A stretch of DNA of 64,000 nt, taken from Dromiciops gliroides (Eukaryota; Chordata; Mammalia; Microbiotheria; Microbiotheriidae). Below are positions 30,429 through 64,000 of this stretch, piece after piece. The DNA is taken from contig NC_057863.1 of NCBI RefSeq assembly GCF_019393635.1, forward strand, positions 642,665,306-642,729,305, in the 5' to 3' direction. Under the pieces are notes generated by a model. The model was not told the DNA's origin, ran no database searches, and worked only from the letters and a program-made list of their open reading frames with translations. Numbering within the stretch: position 1 is the first letter of the stretch; the number at the start of each line of letters is the position of its first letter. A program made the position numbers and the translations under genes.

Positions 30429-31130
30429 TCAGCTGTGAAGTTCCAAGGCTTTCAGCACTTCCCGGATCTGAGCCACGACTTTGACCAATTTTGACTCATT
30501 CAAGTAGCCATCCACGTAGCCATCTCCTCCCTGGGAAACCAAGAGGAACAGCGCCCCCTGAAAGTGCCCCCAAACCGGCCTTCCCCAGCCTCAGCCCTGG
30601 TCCCTGGCTATGCATCTCACCACTCCCACCAGCTTCCCCCAGCCTGGAACAAAAATAATGATAAAAACTCCCATTCAAAGACTGCAAAGCATCGCCCCAC
30701 AGCAGCCCTGGGGCGTTAGGTAGTACATTATCATCCCCATTTTCCAGATTAAGAAATAGAGCCCCAGAGAGGTGATGGACTTGCCCTGGGTCTTGCTTTG
30801 TGGCCAATCCAGAACTCACCCATACATGCTTTGAGGACTTTCTGAGTCCAATCTCACCTTTTTAGAATGCACCAGTTTGCCAGCCACAAAGACCTCAAAA
30901 TCCTCTGAGGGCTGGGGCACCCGCTCTTCAACCTGGGTCAGAGGGAAGTGGAAAATGGCTAACGTCTGTAGTATCCCTCACACACACACATAATATGTAC
31001 GCTGTCACCTTGTACCAGGCCATCAGCAGAGGGGGAATGAAGTGACTTCCACCCAGCATGGGAAGAGTCTACTCACAAAGGTTAGGCGTTCTGGGAAAAT
31101 TTCATTTAGCTGCCTTTTCAGTCGGTTGAA
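30429..31130 (-). CDS. SELENOV-like (SELENOW-family) gene, C-terminal exons
   Basis: Three minus-strand exons with clean GT-AG sites and phase 0 joins: 31077-31130 (FNRLKRQLNEIFPERLTF), 30858-30932 (VEERVPQPSEDFEVFVAGKL plus VHSKK) and 30429-30530 (GGDGYVDGYLNESKLVKVVA..., TGA stop). They match the thioredoxin-like C-terminal half of SELENOW/SELENOV; FEVFV, LVHSKK and NESKL are closer to SELENOV. The gene lies just past DLL3, the place of human SELENOV. VDGYLNES has four residues more than the human proteins. The exon that should carry Cys-x-x-Sec is not found. Fragments at 31292-31306 (PEVTIFG, before a donor) and about 31169-31189 (AYYGLE) line up with human VTYCG and USYSLR, but I cannot join them in frame. 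Whether the gene is functional, a Cys/Sec-lost form or decaying is open. The family call is firm, the symbol less so. Confidence 0.8.
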
Positions 31131-31242
31131 CTAGAGATGAGGAAAAGGGAGTCACTCAGGGGCCCAACTTCCAGCCCATAATAGGCTGGCCCTTCCAAAG
31201 GGCCACAGATCTGATCTCTCCTCTTCCCCCGCCCCACCTCCC

Positions 31243-31270
31243 CGCGCGCGCGCGCGCACACACACACACT
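31243..31270. repeat. (CG)n(CA)n alternating tract
   Basis: Alternating purine-pyrimidine run, (CG) units followed directly by (CA) units, inside the gap where the missing SELENOV-like exon would lie. Confidence 0.95.
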
Positions 31271-31291
31271 TCATCGGGAAAACTCACTCAC

Positions 31292-31640
31292 CCGAAAATG
31301 GTAACTTCAGGAGTTGCTGGAACAGGTGCACAGACATTCAAAGGCATAAAGGCGGAGACAGAGAGAACAGGTCCCCGCCCAAAGATGCAAAGAAGTCGGA
31401 TGGACAGAAAGAGAAACCAGAGATTTGGAGAGATCGAGGACATAGAAGAAGAGATCGCAGTAGCCAGACACAGAGACACCAGAGATAAAGAGATAAACAA
31501 AGTTGAAGAAGACATTGACAGAAAGAGACAGGAATAGAGAGAGAGACAAAGAGACAGAAACGGAGAAGTCCAATGAAAAAGACAGGTAGGGATAGACATA
31601 TCAATGAAAAGGGGGAGGGAAAAGACAAGAATCAGACCGT
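31292..31640 (-). other. Purine/pyrimidine-biased tract upstream of the SELENOV-like exons
   Basis: The plus strand is AGA/GACA-rich. The minus strand is open for 123 codons ending APVPATPEVTIFG before a good donor (CGG|GTGAGT at 31292). The open frame is mostly Ser/Leu low complexity, so I do not call it an exon; only the last residues resemble SELENOV. Confidence 0.35.
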
Positions 31641-31802
31641 CATTTATTTGTGATTGCATCCCCCCTTCCTAATAATTAAAACCGGTTACTTTATCACTTT
31701 AAATTTGCAAATCACTACAAATATACATTATTGGATTTAATCCTTATAACAATCCAGTGAAGTGTGAAGCAGATACTACCTCATTTTAGAAAGGAAAAGG
31801 AG

Positions 31803-31965
31803 GGAGCAGCTAGGTGACGCAGTGGATAAAGCACCGGCCCTGGAGTCAGGAGTACCTGAGTTCAAATCTGGCCTCAGACACTTGACACTTACTAGCTGTG
31901 TGACCCTGGGCAAGTCACTTAACCCTCATTGCCCAGCCAAAAATTTTTTAAAAATTAAAAAAAAA
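31803..31965 (+). mobile_element. tRNA-derived marsupial SINE
   Basis: GAGCAGCTAGGTGACGCAGT head; AAAAAT-rich tail, then AAAGGAAGGAAGG. Confidence 0.92.
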
Positions 31966-32346
31966 GAAAGGAAGGAAGGAAGAGGAAACTGAGGTTCACA
32001 GAGGTTATATCAAGATAACATATCCAGCTGAATAAGAAGTGGGATTCCAGCTCACATTTAGCCTTAACCCAAGTTCAGCATCTCCAGCCCGCCACAGAAC
32101 TTGCCTCTTCTCAGAGAATGCAACACCCCCCGCCCAGAGCAAGCCAAGCACTACCCCACTACTCCATTACCCCACCCCTGCCCTGGAAAGAGAAGTCTGT
32201 TCCCTCTTGCGCAGGGAGCAGTCACTCAGTCCTGGACTGAACCCCGAGTGGGGATACCTCATCAGAGAGAGGGATAAAGAGAGAAGAGAAAGCCAAAAAA
32301 TGAAGCCCTAGAAGCATCCCTTCCATACACGTATAATAAAGATGGG

Positions 32347-32490
32347 GAGGGGGCAGCTAGGTGGCGCAGTGGATAGAACACCGGCCCTGGAGTCAGGAGT
32401 ACCTGCGTTCAAATCCGGCCTCAGACACTTAACACTTACTAGCTGTGTGACCCTGGGCAAGTCACTTAACCCCAATTGCCTCACTAAAAA
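32347..32490 (+). mobile_element. tRNA-derived marsupial SINE
   Basis: ATAAAGATGGGGAG flanks both ends; a close match to the GGATAGAGCACCGG subtype. Confidence 0.95.
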
Positions 32491-32499
32491 AAATTTTTT

Positions 32500-32830
32500 T
32501 TAAATAAAGATGGGGAGATCCGCCTCTAAGAGAACGGGGACCCCCGCTCTCTGCCGTTCTTCCCCTCGCCTTCCACCCCGTCTCTATAGAGGGATGGGGG
32601 CAGGGGAGACACAGCGGGCACCGAGGCCCCATTTACCAGAAAATGACCAGAATCTGAATTCGGGAGGCCTCGTCGGGACTTTCGCTGGTTTGTTGCGGCA
32701 AAACGAGTGGGGGGGCCGGGTCTCTGTCAGAGCAGTGGTCGGTTTCCATGACCCCCGGGAGGGGGGGCGGCGCCCGTCTAACACACCTGAGCGCAGGCAG
32801 TTACCTGCCTAGCAGCCGCCGTTCGGAAAA
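32500..32830. promoter_or_regulatory. CpG-rich segment, possible SELENOV-like promoter
   Basis: A GC- and CpG-rich stretch between DLL3 and the SELENOV-like exons, just upstream of the latter on their strand. No motif fixes a start site and no SELENOV-like N-terminal exon is recognised here. Confidence 0.3.
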
Positions 32831-33059
32831 AGAATTCGGTCACAAGAGGGAACTGTTACATTGCATTCGGTCGCACCTCCAGTCACCCAAAGGTGAGGCG
32901 TAAGGGTGTGCCCTGGAAAAAGGTCTTCCCAGCCAGTCCCCTACCCTTATGGAGAAGAGTCACTGGCACACGGGTAAACACTTGTAGGCTCCAGCCCAAT
33001 CGGAATAATAGGATCACAGACGGAGAATTAATTAGGAGGGCGCTCAGACATCTAGTTCA

Positions 33060-34559
33060 GCCCTATCATTATACAGGTTAAGAAACTGAGGTCCCAGAGA
33101 GGCGAAGTACTTGCTCGAGGCCAGCCTGGTAATAAATGGCAGCGGCAGGATTCGAACCCAAGTCCCAGGATTCCAAGTTCAGGCTGCCTTCCTACAGCAT
33201 AGCTTCCACTCAGGATCTCTCTCTCTCTCTCCCACCCTCCACCCTCCCCGCTCCCCCCCCACAACGCTTCTAAATTCTCCCCCCTGCAAGGTGCTCTCAG
33301 AATCCCTGGACTCCAAATAGCAACTGGGTAGAGGAGGGAGCAGGAGTAAGGAGGTTGGTGAAGGCTGGTGAATGGCAAAGGATTTTAAAGATATTTCATA
33401 ATAACTGCATACAATCATTTATTATTATTATTATTATTAGAATCCAAATGTAACCTCTCTTCCTCAAATCTGGGTCCAACCACTGGAGAAGGAGATCGTT
33501 TAGACCCTTCGAGCCCTAGTGGGAGGTGGAAGCTAAGCCTTCTGACAAGATTCTGGGGATGAGAACTGAAGGAAGCATCGGGGGAAGTGGGGAGAGCTTT
33601 TAGCAGATGGGTTTTTCTCCCTACAGTCCTCCAAGCGATCCTCCCTCAAACCTGTTTGCCTAGGAACTACGGTCTGTGTCTAGCTCTGGAGAAAGCTGCA
33701 GCCAGCCCTTCCCCTTTGCCCGTCCCACCTTTTCCAGGGGGTTGTTGTCCCACAAGCCCAGAGATTCTCCTAGAACCAATATACCTAGCAGGAGGGTGAT
33801 TTAGGATTCCTAAATCCTCTGACCCCTTTGTTGCCACTTCCAGCTGAAAACCTCCTAAGAACATTATAGGGGTTAACCTTGAATGACATCAGTCTACATA
33901 CCTCCCCCAAGCCCATACCAGAGAACCCTGGCTGGATCCCGGGGCCACGCGCAGAGAAATGGACATTGAGTAAAATAAAAATCATTCATAGATGCATCTG
34001 CAGAGATGAGGAAGGGGGACTGATGTAAATATTCTTTTTACACAATTCAAAGTGGGATATGAGGTCCTTGGCTCCCCCAATCCAGAACTCCTGAGTTTTT
34101 CGGGAACAGGCTTCGTGAGCCACAACGGGATTAAGGCAACTCCCTTCCCCAAGAGACTTTTCCTGCCTGCTGTATGCCTGAGTTTCCCCATCCCTTGAGT
34201 GTGTTGGGGGGAAGAGGGGAAATGTCTGCAGAAACAGCATCAGAGAATAAATATGTTAACGTCTCTAGGTCTTCAAGGGAGCTTGAGAAAGCGAGAAGTC
34301 CGGCGAAGGGCTGATTCAGACCTAGAAGCGAAACGAGAAGACAGGATCGTCGATCGAGGAGGCAACAGATGGTTGTGCCCAGTCCCCTCCCCCAACTATC
34401 CCATGACCCAATGGAGAAAAAAGAGTTTCAGGGAAGAAGCTCTCCCCACCCCGCACCCCCACTCAGCTCTGCAAAGGGGGAAAACCAGCGACTAAGAAAG
34501 AGCAGCGAGAAGGAAATTTAGACTCTGGAAATGAGAGAAAGGGAGGGCAGGGCAGAGGC
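33060..34559. other. DLL3 3' flank, no gene seen
   Basis: Holds a MIR-like remnant (33065-33170) and (ATT)n at 33418-33440. The nearest minus-strand AATAAA I see is at about 33416, 1.1 kb past the DLL3 stop; the true poly(A) site is undecided. Confidence 0.45.
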
Positions 34560-37500
34560 TCAAAGGAAGGGAAGTGGGAGAAGACTCGCCTCTCTGGCAT
34601 AGAGGGGGCAGTCTGGGATGACATAGATGGTTCGAGGGTCGCTGTCCTCTGCAAGACACCAATCTTCGGTCCTGCTGGAGAAAGAGATGGGGCTGGAGGG
34701 AGGGAGGCTCCCAGGTCCCCCGTCCCCCGCCCCAACACCAGGACTGAGAAGAAGTGGCGATTATCAGAAATAGCGTGGGATAACTTACTGGAAATTCGAA
34801 GGGACGATTAGCATTGTTTTCTGGGCAAGAAACACCGGACCTAGATCCAATTTCTCCAATTCCCCAGTCCCCTGAAACCTTTTCGCACCGCCCCCTCCAA
34901 AGCCCGTGCGCCAGCTTCCTCGGGAACTAACTATCGGATCACGGATTAGAGAACGGTCGGACCAATCGGCAGCGCTCCCCCCAGACCACAGAATGGGCAG
35001 AAGCAGGGAACATTTACGGGTCCTAGTTGTCTGCAACTTCACCTCATCCCCGACGACGGCTCCAGCCGTCGCTGCGTCCGCTCGTGCTTGGGCGCTTTTA
35101 AGTTCCCGGGGCCCTGAAAAGGGGGGACCTGGGAGCCAATCTCGTGAGCCCGGAGGTTGTTGAGTGCGTCGGCTGGAGGCGGGGTTGGCGGAGCAGGGTC
35201 TGGGGAGGAAGGAAGGGGCCGCGCCCCTGGACTCCGCCGGCGGGCCCGGGCTCTGACCAGGAGGGCCGCGCCTCCCGCCACGACCGCCAACAGCAGCACC
35301 AGAGCGAAGGGAAGTCCCAAGGCCCCCGGCAGGGGTACTTGTCTGCGTCGGGCAGCTTCTGGGGGCCCGCGGTGGGGCCCGGGCGGGGGAGGGGCAGGAG
35401 CCGGCGGGAGCTCGGAGCCGTCCCCTTCCTTAGGCCCGGGACTCACGGGGAACTCACAGCGCGCGCCCATGTAGCCCGGAGCACAGGAGCACACGTGGCC
35501 GGAGAAGTGCGCGTAGCAGCGGCCACCGTGCTCGCAAGGCTGGGGATCACAGGGGTCAGCGCGCTCACGACAGTCGCGTCCCCCAAAGCCCAGCGTGCAG
35601 GAGCAGCGGAAGCTGTGCGCGCCGTCCACGCATGTGCCCCCGTTGGCGCAGGGCCGTCCCGCACAGTCGTCCAGGTCCCTCTCGCAGCGCGGACCCCCGA
35701 AGCCGGGCCTGCAGCGGCACAGGACCGCGCGGCCCAAGTCCAGACAGAAACCGCCTACGAGGGAAAGAGAGCCCCGGCGTCACGTCCCTCTTTTGTCTAC
35801 ACCCCCCCTCCCCCGCCCCAGCCTCAGCTGAGCCTGGGACGCACCGAGACTGAATTCCCAGCACCACCCGTCCCTTTTGGAGATGCGCACCAACCCTGAG
35901 AAGCCACCGAATGAAAGGATCTCAGAGCTGGAGAGAACCTTGGAGAGCGTCTGATCCAATCACGTCAGCCTCATTTTCTCTCTTCCAAATCACCTCATTC
36001 CTGTCTGTCCTCTCTGCTTTCCTTACCCTCCTGCAGCTCTCTGATTCTGAGGCTTTCTCTCGGCGTTTCCTTACTTCTCTCGGCTACAGTTTCGCTTGGG
36101 CTCCCTCAGCTTTACTCTCCCTCTCACTCATCTTCACTCCCCAATAAAGGAAAGGGCGAAGGCCTTTGGTCTCCAGGTCTTGGACGAGCCTCACGGCTGT
36201 CCCTATACTTCTTCCAGGTCCCTCTGCCCCAGACCTCCAGCCCATGGTTCAATGGAAAGATTTGAAATCAAAGGAGCTGGATTCAAGTTCTGACATCTAC
36301 TACCTAAGACCTTAGGCAATTTACTCAACTGGGGCTCTCTGAGCCTCAGTTTTCTCGTGTGAAAAATGAGGTCGTTGGACTAGATCTTTTCTAGTTTTAA
36401 GCCTATCATCTAGTCATCTCTGGCCTCAGTTTCCTCTTCTGTCAGATGAGGAGTGGTCTGCATGGTCTTGAGGGTCTCTGAGTCCTGTTCCCTTCACCCT
36501 CCCCGAGGCTCACCGTTGCGACAAGGCTGCAGATTACAGCGATCCATCTTCTTCTCACAGTTGGAGCCATGGAAGCCTGGTGGGCAGCGGCAGGTGTAGC
36601 CAGCAGGGGCCCCGCCATCCACACAGGTACCGCCATTGAAGCAGGGCCCATCAGCACAGGTCATCCCAATGACCTCACACCGCTTTCCATAGAAGCCCCG
36701 CGGACATGTGCATTCAAAGTCCCCGGCCACCTCCTGGGAGCAGAAAGGGGAGGGAGGGAAGGAGGGAGGGCGTTAAGAAGGACCAGAGGTCGTAGTTCAA
36801 ATCTTGGCCCTGCTACTTACTACGTGCCCTTCTCTGAACCTCAGTTTCCTTATCTGTTAAATGAGAGGACCTAGATGATCCCCTAGTCCATATGTCCGAT
36901 TGCACTGATTCTGGCGCCAGCGTCGCCTTTCTGAAGTGTTGTAACAGCCTTCCAACTGATCCCTCAGTTTCCTCTTTCTCTCCTTCTTTAATCCATCTTC
37001 CACACTTCTGCCCTAAAGCACAGATCTGACTGGGGTAGCACAGCTCCCTCTTGCCTCCAGGATAAAATACTCTCCACTTGGAACTTCCATCTCTACCCTT
37101 TCTAGCATCTTTCTGGATACTGCCCTTCATGGCATCTTTCTAGAAACTGCCCTTTAAAGATTCTGGACTCAAACGGAACTGAGCTTCTAGCTCTTCCCCA
37201 GACTCCGAATTCTGCCCTACAGCCATACCTTTGCACAGGCTAACTGGAATTGCAGCCCTTTATCTCTTTCTTTCTTTCTTTCTTTCTTTCTTGGGCGGGG
37301 CAGTGAGGGTTAAGTGACTTGCCCAGGGTCACACAGCCAGTAAGTGTCAAGTGTCTGAGGTCAGATTTGAACTCAGGTCCTCCAGGTCTGGTGCTTTATC
37401 CACTGTGCCACCTAGCTGCCCCTGCAGCACTTTATCTTAACTTCTCCAGACTTTGCCTTCTGTCAAGTCTCAGATAAGGCACCACCTTCATACTTTCCCT

Positions 37501-40500
37501 GATCCACTTCCCACACCCCTAGTGCTTTCCCGCTGTTCCATCTCTCTCCCATTAGACTTGCTCCTATATACCTTGTATCTATCCCTCAAAGTGTGAGCTC
37601 TCTGAGGGGCAGGGACTGTGGGAACAGTGCCTTGCATCCTGTAGGAGCCTAATAAATGTTCGATGAGTTGAATTGAGTCTAAGAACCTTTCCCACTCTCA
37701 GTCCTGGGATCCCTTATATGTGTTCTCTTGTCTGGTTTCTGAATATGACTTCGGAGACTACTCCTGGGATGGATTATGGGATCATGGCTCTCAAGCGAGA
37801 AGAACCCTTAGAGGTTATCTAGTCCAACCGCTCCTCCCCATTTTACATATGAGAAAACTGAGGCCCAAAAGGAGGTGAAGTGATTCCCCCCTTTCCCTGG
37901 CCCTCAACACACCGTCCTCAAGGTCTCCTCTGAATTCTGCCTCCTACACGTCCCTTCCTTTCCATGCCTATGGCCCCTACCCTAATCCAAAACCTGGGCC
38001 CAGGGCCAGAAGGATCCTAGACTAAACCAGGGGGCTCAGTGACAAATATGTTGATGGATCTATGCCAGCAGCATCGTGATGACAGCAAAAGTGTCCTAGA
38101 TTCCAGTCAGGCAAACTGGGTTCAAGTCCTGACTCTCCCACTAACAAGCTGTTCGACACTGGGCAGGTGAATTCCCCTCTCTGAGCCAGTTTCCTTATCT
38201 GTCAAATAGGGATAATAATTCATGTAACAGATGGCTTGTTAGGAGGAGTGATTCTAAGCTTTCCAAAATGCTTTCCGCACACTATCAATTAGGTATTTTC
38301 CTCATCCAATAGATAAAGCAGCTAAGGCTCACAGCTAGCAAGTATCAGCAGCAGTATCTGGACCCAGGTCTTCTTAACTCTAGGTCCAGGGCACCATGCC
38401 CTGGGGTACATAAAGGAAGCATTTTGTAACCTTAAAGTGTTCTAAGGCATTGGTTTTAGCACACACAGAAAAGAGGGTCCCTCATCAAAGGCCACTGAAA
38501 GGTCAGAGGTCAGGGTTCCTGGAAGAGGGAGAGCCTGAAGTCAGGACTGGTCATCTGGGGGCAGGGGAAGAACTCGGGGGTCAGTACTAACACTGCAGCT
38601 GCCACCATTGGTACATGGGTGATCATCACACAGTCCGGCTGGGAAGAGGCATTGGCGGCTGGAGAATCCTGGGAGGTTGGAGCAGGTGGCTCCGTTGGTA
38701 CATGGCTGGAGGCTGGAGCAGTCACTGTTGGGGACTCGGATGGTGCAGAGGGGGCCAGTCCAGCCTTGACGACAGTGGCACTCACCTGGCCTTTCACAGG
38801 AGCCATACTCAGCACTGCAGCCTGCCTGACATATGGCTGCAAGGGGAGAGATGAGGGACCCCAGGCAGAGAGAGGGAGTGAAGGATGAAGGCCACAGAGA
38901 TGTGGGAAGAAACAAAAGTGGAAAGATGGAATATTTGGGAGAGAAATATTAGGGGAGTTGGGGGAGAAGGAGAGGTGGAGAGGAAAATCGGGTGGAGAGA
39001 CACAGGGGGGCATCAGGGAGAGCGATAGGGGAGAAACAAGGAGTTTGGGGGGAAAGGTTTGTAGAAGATATTGAGGGACATGGAGTTTGTGGGAGAGATG
39101 GGAAAAAAATAAAACAGGAAAGAGTTATGGGAGATGTGGTGAACACATGACATCGGGGAAGACCTTGACAGGAGAGTGGTTGAAGATAAGGTTTGTGAGA
39201 GTTTTGAAGGAAGAGAGCAGAAAAAACGGTTTAAAGGAACATGACATATTTAGGGAATAGAAAACAAAGAAGAGACAATGGGAGAGACCCAAAGGGGGAG
39301 GGGAGAAAGCTTGGTGAGCTGTTTGGTGACCGCCAAGCTTAGCCTGACTACCACCTCCAGCCCTGGGAATGGCAATGGGAGGGGGCCGGCTCCCAGGGAG
39401 TTCTCAGAGTCTCGAGAAGGTAAGTGTTAGAGGAGCGTCGAACTCTAAAATCAGGGTGTTTGGAGGGGGAGAGTCTACGTCATTCTGGTGAAAAGAGAAC
39501 TCGGCCTCTCCTTGGGTGGGAGCGGAGGGTCCTTGGTTATCCGCCCCTGTCCCACTAGTTCAACTCAACGCTGGGCTCACACCTTCCGCAGCCCAGCCGT
39601 CCAGGCATCCTTCCCCCTCCCTCCCCCGGCCACCAGCCCAGCCCGTTCACTCACGCCGGGCACACATGTCTCCAGCCCAGCCGTCCATGCACACGCGCTC
39701 CCCGTTGGCCCCGCAATGGAAGTGGCCAAGTGGGTCGTCTCGAGGGCGGCAGAGTCGGGCACAGGCAGGACCATAGTAGTAAGGCTCGCAACGAACCCGG
39801 TAGGAGAAGAGGAGCTCCCAGCCTCCGGCCTGCCTAGCATCCCGGGACCAGGGGCCGCCCACCGCCAACTTGTGCCGCCCAGCCAACCGGCTCAGCAGAC
39901 TCCGATCCGGCCCTGCAAGCAACAGGAATGTGGTAGCCCGGACCTGTGGTCCCAGCCAGCCTCATCTGTGCCTGGCGGCGGACCACAGGCCTCCCCGCTC
40001 CTTGATGCGGGAGCCCTTGAGAACCCAGCCCCCCTGGAGGTTTACAGCCCACTGCACCCCACCACCCTCCTATCTGTGATTCCAGGCCACAGGTCCCCTC
40101 CTACCTGGATAACGTAGGCCCTCCGATGTCAGACACAATCTCTGACGTGGTGACTTGGACTACACAAATTCCAACACGTGGGATTCCCAGAGCCCGGACC
40201 TCCCTCCCACACCCCTCTTTCTCCACCCTCCCCAGCCCACATACAAGAGTTCGCGGTACCAAGTTCCCCAGGCCCCCATGGAAATCAAAGACCACCCCCT
40301 CCAATCTAACTCCACCCACACCCTGAATGCCCCGCCCCCGCTGATACCCGAGCCCCCCCTTCCCTTCCATCTCCGCTCTTTCCCCTTCCCTCCCCTCACC
40401 TGGAAGCTTCTCCCCCAACTCTTCCTTACTCCTGGAATCAAGTTCCTCCCTCCAGGATTCGATGATTAAAGAGAAAGTCCCCTGGAGGAGGGGGCAGAAA

Positions 40501-41655
40501 GGACACGGGGGAGCATCAACAGGAAGTCGGAGGGAATTCGAGAAGGGGGATAGGAGAGGAGGAATGGAGGAAGTAATTTCCTAGCTCAGGGGAGAGGGAC
40601 ACTGCAGGTAGTCAAAGGCTTTAAAAGAGGAAACAGATATGAGACTGAGAAAGATGCTGCTTTGTATAGAGAGAGGATCTGAGGGTCCCTGAAGTCAGCA
40701 ATGAAGATTGGGGTGGGAGCATGAATCTGGGGAAGTCTCGGAAATGGAGAGAGGAGGCTGTGTCTGGTCATCCCTCAGGGAACCCCGTGGTTAGGGTCTT
40801 CCAAGATAGGAGATAGGAGCACCAGAGGGTCTGCTTCTGTCGGTTGGGGTGCGGCCATGTCTGGGAATGGAGGTACCTCCTAGTTTCTGAATTAGAGTCT
40901 AGGGAGGAAAGGGGGGCGGGGGGCGTCCTGAAATCTTAGGAGATGAGAGTCTCAGAGTTCTGGGGATGGGCTTCATCCCGCGTCTAGGGAAGGTTTCCCG
41001 GGGTGTAATTGGGATCAAAGACATTCCTGGACATCTGAGGGAGTGACTTCTATAGAATTGGACGGGAGTGGGATATCCTAATGGAATCTGATGTGGAGAT
41101 CTTCACATAGCCGTGAAAGGGGGGGGGGATCCCACAAGGTCGCAAGGTTCTGGAGGGCCGAGAGTTCTATTAACTCAAAAAAGGGCTCCTCACCGGCCAA
41201 GCGGTCCGGAAGGGAACACGGATGAGGCCGTCAGTCAGGGAGAGCTGTGGACCCGGATCGGTGGGGTCCCCGGGGTGGGGGGTCCCTGGGGTACTGAGCG
41301 CAGCCCCTAGGACACACGGCAGCTCTGGGCTCCGGTCGGGCAGCGCAGGCTTCAGGCAGACACGAAAGATGAGACGGCAGGAGCCCCGGGTACCACACGG
41401 GGAGTCTGGAGGGGCCAGGGACCCTGGACCGCGCCGGAAGGAGTGGATCTGCAGTTCGAAGACTCCTGCGCAGCGGACCTTAGGGAGCAACAGGGGGACA
41501 AGAGGTCAGAGAGTCCCAAGTACCCCACCCTCCTAGCCCAGTGTCCCGCCGGAACCCCTCCTCCGGGGCCGCCCCGATGCCCCTACCTTGGGAAGACAAA
41601 GTAAAGAAACCAGCGCCGCCAGGAGCCGGGCGCCCAGCGGCCGTCTGGAGGCCAT
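34560..41655 (-). CDS. DLL3: DLL3, delta-like Notch ligand 3
   Basis: DLL3 is a single-pass Delta-family protein needed for somite segmentation. Eight minus-strand coding exons: 41587-41655 (ATG 41655), 41194-41478, 40400-40481, 39655-39912, 38592-38836, 36514-36733, 35043-35754, 34560-34671 (TGA). All junction phases agree and sum to 1983 nt, 660 residues; human has 618. Order: signal peptide ([20 protein letters not shown]), MNNL region (about 24-185), DSL (187-229), six EGF repeats, a Pro-rich stalk, membrane segment ([20 protein letters not shown]) and a cytoplasmic tail ending [13 protein letters not shown]. The first EGF is followed by a degenerate spacer, as in human DLL3. Exon 7 uses the GATGAG|GTGAAG donor, the choice that keeps frame into exon 8 ([12 protein letters not shown], like human VDWNRPEDVDP). 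The DSL is canonical, unlike placental DLL3. Synteny with TIMM50 and SUPT5H confirms identity. Confidence 0.96.
35043..35754 (-). other. DLL3: DLL3 exon 7: last EGF repeats, membrane segment, cytoplasmic tail
   Basis: Encodes EGF4 (completed from exon 6), EGF5 ([15 protein letters not shown]...) and EGF6 ([15 protein letters not shown]...). Then come a Pro-rich stalk, one membrane helix, a basic stop-transfer (RARARRR) and a tail with the conserved DALNNLR motif. The tail includes [14 protein letters not shown] with two lysines, where I recall the human tail having none before the final residue. Very GC-rich. Confidence 0.93.
36245..36410 (+). mobile_element. MIR-type SINE in DLL3 intron 6
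   Basis: AGGCAATTTACTCAACTGGG, GAGCCTCAGTTTTCTCGTGT. Confidence 0.65.
37263..37422 (-). mobile_element. tRNA-derived marsupial SINE in DLL3 intron 5
   Basis: (TTTC)n tail then GGGCAGTGAGGGTTAAGTGA; TGCAGC(C/A)CTTTATCT flanks it. Confidence 0.93.
37570..37675 (+). mobile_element. L2 LINE 3' end
   Basis: GTGAGCTCTCTGAGGGGCAG, GGAGCCTAATAAATGTTCGA. Confidence 0.7.
38090..38270 (+). mobile_element. MIR-type SINE in DLL3 intron 5
   Basis: TTCAAGTCCTGACTCTCCCA, TTCCTTATCTGTCAAATAGG. Confidence 0.65.
39655..39912 (-). other. DLL3: DLL3 exon 4, canonical DSL domain
   Basis: The exon encodes [20 protein letters not shown] followed by [20 protein letters not shown] and WAGDMC. Six cysteines (C187, C196, C200, C212, C220, C229) have the DSL spacing, with the YYYG and CRPRDD...GHF motifs shared by DLL1 and JAG1. 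In human and mouse DLL3 this stretch is degenerate (CEPPAVG..., no DD..GHF). Confidence 0.95.

Positions 41656-49097: not shown

Positions 49098-56164
<7,067 letters not shown>

Positions 56165-57370: not shown

Positions 57371-64000
<6,630 letters not shown>

Follow-up and report, generated by a model that had tools for sequence, protein, structure and literature searches.

An intact DSL domain in marsupial DLL3 points to a probable stepwise dismantling of this Notch ligand

The DLL3 protein of the marsupial Dromiciops gliroides carries a whole DSL domain, unlike the placental DLL3 proteins with which it was compared. On the rows compared, decay of the domain maps to the placental stem, after the marsupial-placental split. 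Judged from sequence, marsupial DLL3 is probably an intermediate in a stepwise dismantling, still competent to bind Notch and either poorly activating or inhibitory, with placentals having lost the contact later. In the open-access papers searched, no account of a marsupial or monotreme DLL3 with its DSL whole was recognised, and earlier notice by others is possible, the NCBI entries being public.

The window, which is the whole stretch of 64,000 nucleotides that was analysed, comes from D. gliroides, and the protein encoded in it is 99% identical to the NCBI DLL3 of that species (P0002). The spliced model comprises eight exons and 660 residues on the minus strand between 34560 and 41655, with GT at all donors and AG at all acceptors (Table 1). 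It differs from P0002 by two residues near the joint of exons 1 and 2, and the C-termini differ as well. P0002 itself continues from exon 8 into selenoprotein-like (Rdx) exons (window 30432-34671, minus strand), a joining that is either a read-through transcript or an annotation error. An Rdx domain is also carried by the camel DLL3 model P0037, and the Rhynchocyon model P0029 has a tail of similar appearance, which resembles SELENOV. All four marsupials have an insertion of 8 residues in C2 (residues ~133-140; window 40416-40439, minus strand) that is missing from the aligned platypus, placental and non-mammalian DLL3 rows.

Table 1. DLL3 and neighbouring features in the window
Feature	Position	Strand	Basis
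DLL3 exon 1 (ATG, signal peptide)	41587..41655	-	spliced model
DLL3 exon 2 (bulk of C2/MNNL; Pro at DLL4 His64-equivalent)	41194..41478	-	spliced model, Pfam, contact-residue comparison
DLL3 exon 3 (C2/MNNL, 8-residue insertion)	40400..40481	-	spliced model, alignment
DLL3 exon 4 (C2 end and entire DSL)	39655..39912	-	translation in frame fixed by exon 3
DSL domain, residues 184-231 (six cysteines, contact loop)	39656..39799	-	Pfam, structure-domain matches, alignment
DLL3 exon 5 (EGF1 and EGF3 remnant; without EGF2)	38592..38836	-	spliced model, alignment
DLL3 residues 265-299, site of EGF2 and EGF3 second half in platypus and non-mammals	38634..38738	-	alignment
DLL3 exon 6 (EGF repeats)	36514..36733	-	spliced model
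DLL3 exon 7 (EGF repeats, transmembrane segment, first part of intracellular tail)	35043..35754	-	spliced model
DLL3 transmembrane segment, in exon 7	about 35255-35317	-	hydrophobicity guess
DLL3 exon 8 (tail end, stop)	34560..34671	-	spliced model; NCBI model departs after YARE, extreme end uncertain
Selenoprotein-like (Rdx family) gene exons, adjoining DLL3 and fused to it in P0002	30432..31130	-	comparison with NCBI model
Open frame with Tim50-like stretch, synteny neighbour	50871..51380	-	weak match, E 8.8e-4; no Pfam family
SPT5 (SUPT5H) exons, synteny neighbour	59972..61907	-	domain search

The extent of exon 4 and the six DSL cysteines given in the initial annotation (residues 187, 196, 200, 212, 220 and 229) agree exactly with the spliced 660-residue model, and the three motifs that it had likened to DLL1 and JAG1, namely YYYG, CRPRDD and GHF, are all present. 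YYYG is unique to Dromiciops among the marsupials compared, with HYYG in koala, opossum and devil. In Dromiciops DLL3 the six cysteines are canonically spaced and the acidic-x-x-GH loop is present. Residues 187-231 are recognised by Pfam DSL (PF01414) with E=2.2e-16, and DSL domains of solved structures match the exon with a best E of 1.8e-14 (fly Delta, then JAG1, Serrate, DLL1, JAG2 and DLL4). Because the Pfam score of 60.3 bits exceeds the curated cut-off of 24.2 bits and the solved domains match as well, the DSL match is not due to chance. With an identity of 46-54%, the marsupial DSL stands about as near to the domains of DLL1, DLL4, JAG1, fly Delta and Serrate as those domains stand to each other (46-63%). 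In the AlphaFold models, the Dromiciops DSL is partly ordered, with contact-loop residues 203-208 of P0002 at pLDDT <50, and the rat DLL3 DSL is without ordered structure; this contrast between predicted models is weak evidence.

Homologues were drawn from lists clustered at 90% identity (best 120 of 1249; best 120 of 2629, DLL1-type; best 120 of 1167). Among the best 120 of 1249, the cysteine spacing and acidic-x-x-GH core are found in all four marsupials (Dromiciops, Phascolarctos, Monodelphis and Sarcophilus), and the DSL is likewise intact in the single platypus and coelacanth rows, 5/5 reptiles, 7/7 amphibians, 55/55 fish, 6/6 Jagged and 3/3 invertebrate rows, and in none of the 38 placental rows. 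One decayed form, with the six cysteines kept and the GH and GW segments deleted, accounts for 33 of these 38 (P0010 exceeds the common pattern by one residue and P0030 falls short of it by one); the other five (P0032, P0034, P0037, P0038 and P0093), which are counted in the placental denominators, are models without the DSL region or truncated there. The positions of JAG1 residues 207-209 are gaps in 38/38 placentals from the same best 120 of 1249. In the DLL1-type set (best 120 of 2629), the core is present in 120/120 rows and the cysteine spacing in 119/120, while 52 further rows have the core in 49 and the spacing in 48, the core being missing in P0244 (a short platypus model), P0264 and P0284. 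Pfam DSL was found in 34 of the 47 members of alignment A2, which includes 13 placentals, and by inference from the domain lists the 13 members without a match are these 13 placentals.

The view in the initial annotation that the DSL is degenerate in placentals holds for those compared, which were macaque, rat and others apart from human and mouse. Its dating of the decay to after the marsupial-placental split is borne out by the same counts, and the alignment of exon 4 across marsupials, platypus and placentals revealed no placental-like DSL in the four marsupials (best 120 of 1249). Since the deletions are common to Afrotheria (golden mole, tenrec and elephant shrew), Xenarthra (tamandua) and other placentals, the simple reading is one decay event on the placental stem. 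The decayed domain retains its six cysteines in 33 of the 38 placental rows, and its identity among seven placentals (80%) is like that of C2 (78%) and below that of the later EGF repeats (92%), so it may be constrained for another use.

A rival reading is that the gene is another Delta paralogue, or that the domain was copied from DLL1 through gene conversion, and the 54% identity of the marsupial DSL to DLL1 (likewise 54% to JAG1) could be read in that way. This is highly improbable. In a tree of 442 ectodomain columns from which the DSL columns were removed, marsupial and placental DLL3 are joined with an SH-aLRT support of 100, platypus comes next (100), and DLL3 nests in a vertebrate DeltaC/DLL3 clade (99) that is separate from DLL1 (91), including the DLL1 of opossum and platypus. 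The tree holds 43 rows, made up of 41 of the 240 listed proteins, the window protein (standing for P0002) and one human DLL4 fragment, which is the only representative of DLL4; it was built by a quick method, seven placental rows deviate in composition, and Sarcophilus P0005 was excluded for its odd N-terminal model. The neighbouring genes in the window also fit DLL3, with the selenoprotein-like gene, the weak Tim50-like stretch and SPT5 all on the minus strand, in what is presumably the order of human 19q13. Gene conversion from DLL1 to DLL3 is further disfavoured because some residues of the DSL exon occur in macaque DLL3 too but not in opossum DLL1. On the tree and the neighbours, the gene is the true marsupial orthologue of DLL3, as the initial annotation had held. 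Within the DeltaC/DLL3 clade, the fish rows P0065, P0083 and P0098 sit as a group with a support of 100, P0065 having been grouped by sequence with the two fish rows named delta-like protein B; a review likens DeltaB to Dll1, unlike its position in this tree (PMC9001970).

Outside the DSL, marsupial and placental DLL3 share a series of losses. The alignment shows EGF2 missing and EGF3 broken in four marsupials and nine placentals, both repeats being whole in platypus and the aligned non-mammals. A strict EGF2 pattern occurs in 0/4 marsupials and 0/38 placentals (best 120 of 1249). Of the 198 rows that are not therian DLL3, 17 also fail to show this pattern, so the therian loss rests on the alignment too. 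Pfam JAG1-like_EGF2 matches 36 of the 47 A2 members weakly, with E values as high as 1, which is 6 above the 30 non-therian rows. Tail lysines, whose counts depend on a membrane segment guessed from hydrophobicity, number 2, 2, 2 and 0 in the marsupials (0 in Sarcophilus; residues 606 and 609, both in exon 7, in Dromiciops). Platypus has 2, the placental median is 0, and reptiles and amphibians have 7-16 (best 120 of 1249); the median of the DLL1 set is 15 (best 120 of 2629). The placental models P0029, P0037 and P0093, with 3-8 tail lysines, have tails that look fused or wrongly modelled. A terminal ATEV is found in 0/43 mammals (0/4 marsupials), 2/5 reptiles, 7/7 amphibians and 44/55 fish (best 120 of 1249), and in only 64/120 rows of the DLL1 set (best 120 of 2629), where many models are cut.

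Residues that contact Notch have changed as well. DLL4 His64 is described as contacting Notch1 (PMC6986876). The equivalent position is Pro in the three readable marsupials and 38/38 placentals, and His in platypus and 68/68 non-mammalian rows of the DeltaC/DLL3 group (best 120 of 1249). The adjoining contact Phe65 is uninformative because Ala, Ser or Gly already stands there in nearly all of these rows. The contact face of JAG1, given as F199, R201, R203, D205 and F207 (PMC3415683), reads L, R, R, D and L in 4/4 marsupials, so that the three charged residues are kept.

These retained and altered parts bear on whether marsupial DLL3 is a real trans-activating Notch ligand, for which few lysines or other sorting signals would suffice, the non-activating form then being a placental novelty. 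The intact motifs and spacing, the charged contacts, the two tail lysines in three of four marsupials and the occurrence of Leu at the JAG1 207 position in 9/55 fish rows of the same clade (best 120 of 1249) would be in keeping with such a ligand. It is nevertheless unlikely in view of the lost EGF2 and broken EGF3, the C2 Pro, the missing ATEV and the lysine-free tail of Sarcophilus. A review ascribes the failure of mouse Dll3 jointly to absent tail lysines, an absent DOS motif and a DSL-EGF1-2 head unable to replace that of Dll1 (PMC9001970). With EGF2 lost, EGF3 broken, 0-2 tail lysines and Leu in place of Phe207, the suggestion in the initial annotation that this DLL3 may still activate Notch is not upheld as worded. 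Its companion claim, that the cis-inhibitory role was derived in placentals, is likewise not upheld as worded. Serrate DSL mutants are described as losing both trans-activation and cis-inhibition (PMC3415683), so a whole DSL speaks no more for activation than for inhibition. Inhibitory behaviour may also predate mammals, since fish DeltaC, whose DSL is intact, is described in the same review as partly intracellular and drawing DeltaD off the membrane (PMC9001970).

In a different possibility, the marsupial DSL would be a passive survivor, still folded but unable to bind Notch since contact residues of C2 and DSL changed in the therian ancestor, in a protein that works like mouse DLL3. Branch lengths from 24 of the 43 tree rows, on a fixed species tree written by hand, give fast change on the therian stem in C2 (1.03) and the DSL (1.08), but not in the later EGF repeats (0.21). 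Measured against six non-mammalian tetrapods and the coelacanth, the DSL is 74% identical in platypus, 49% in marsupials and 29% in placentals. In addition, the single change F207A is reported to abolish JAG1 binding (PMC3888931), and marsupials have Leu at that position. On the other hand, Leu is a mild change that occurs in fish relatives, and DLL4 itself has Leu at the JAG1 199 position. The three marsupials compared share 94% identity in this domain, and the DSL branch measures 0.00 changes per site on the marsupial stem and 1.65 on the placental one; this identity and the zero stem suggest continuing constraint on the marsupial domain. It is therefore doubtful that the domain merely survives.

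The stepwise dismantling proposed above appears the best account, and it is probable in our estimate. The sequences show C2, DSL, a complete EGF1-2-3 and a lysine-rich tail often ending in ATEV in the DeltaC/DLL3 relatives among fish, amphibians and reptiles. Marsupials and placentals both show EGF2 lost, EGF3 broken, the C2 contact His replaced by Pro, and the tail poor in lysines and without ATEV, and the DSL contact loop is missing only from placentals. The marsupial DSL would still fold and touch Notch EGF11-12 at least weakly, and the protein, without most of the pulling lysines and part of the head, would be mainly a poorly activating or inhibitory ligand. Placentals would then have dropped direct contact with Notch, keeping only a cis, Golgi-based mode. 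In favour of this account, human DLL3 N-EGF1 is described as binding neither Notch1 nor Notch2 in a plate assay (PMC5538765). As far as the compared proteins go, the order of losses is shown to end with the DSL; an order in which the tail preceded EGF2 is unsure, as it rests on models of one platypus genome. Several observations stand against this account. Binding could already be abolished by Leu in place of JAG1 Phe207 and by Pro in place of DLL4 His64, leaving the DSL a mere surviving fold, and the contact loop is of low confidence in the AlphaFold model. The two lysines kept in three of the four marsupials speak against a strict loss of pulling, and changes in EGF2 need not be fatal because DLL4 is described as signalling without a DOS motif (PMC6986876).

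DLL3 is a drug target in small-cell lung cancer. Vertebral segmentation is also described as requiring it (PMC4391858). In the improbable case that marsupial DLL3 does trans-activate, marsupial and placental segmentation would differ in their DLL3 step, and a ligand that does nothing but inhibit, as in mouse, would have arisen only on the placental stem. The transition from an activating ligand to one that neither binds nor trans-activates is known so far chiefly through mouse chimeras. The platypus protein with its full head, the marsupial protein with a DSL and no EGF2, and the placental protein with no DSL loop are natural intermediates, which would separate the contributions of the DSL, EGF2 and tail using unaltered proteins. 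They also counsel caution, in that mouse DLL3 need not represent mammalian DLL3.

Placental DLL3, as seen in macaque, rat and others, is one of the closest known systems and is orthologous to the marsupial protein, the better models being 52-54% identical to it across most of the length. Both are without EGF2, with EGF3 broken, have few tail lysines and no terminal ATEV, carry Pro in the C2 contact loop and keep six DSL cysteines. Unlike the whole marsupial domain, the placental DSL is without the DD, GH and GW segments, and Pfam DSL fails to recognise it. Platypus DLL3 and the DeltaC/DLL3 proteins of reptiles, amphibians and fish belong to the same clade and have an intact DSL, as marsupials do, but retain EGF2 and EGF3, and their C2 contact residue is His; the non-mammals also have lysine-rich tails, which mostly end in ATEV in amphibians and fish. 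Marsupial DLL3 resembles DLL1, DLL4 and JAG1 in its DSL spacing, its RPRDD..GH loop (KKRND..GH in DLL4) and its C2-DSL-EGF1 order, and differs from them in having Leu at the JAG1 Phe207 position, no EGF2, 0-2 tail lysines and no ATEV.
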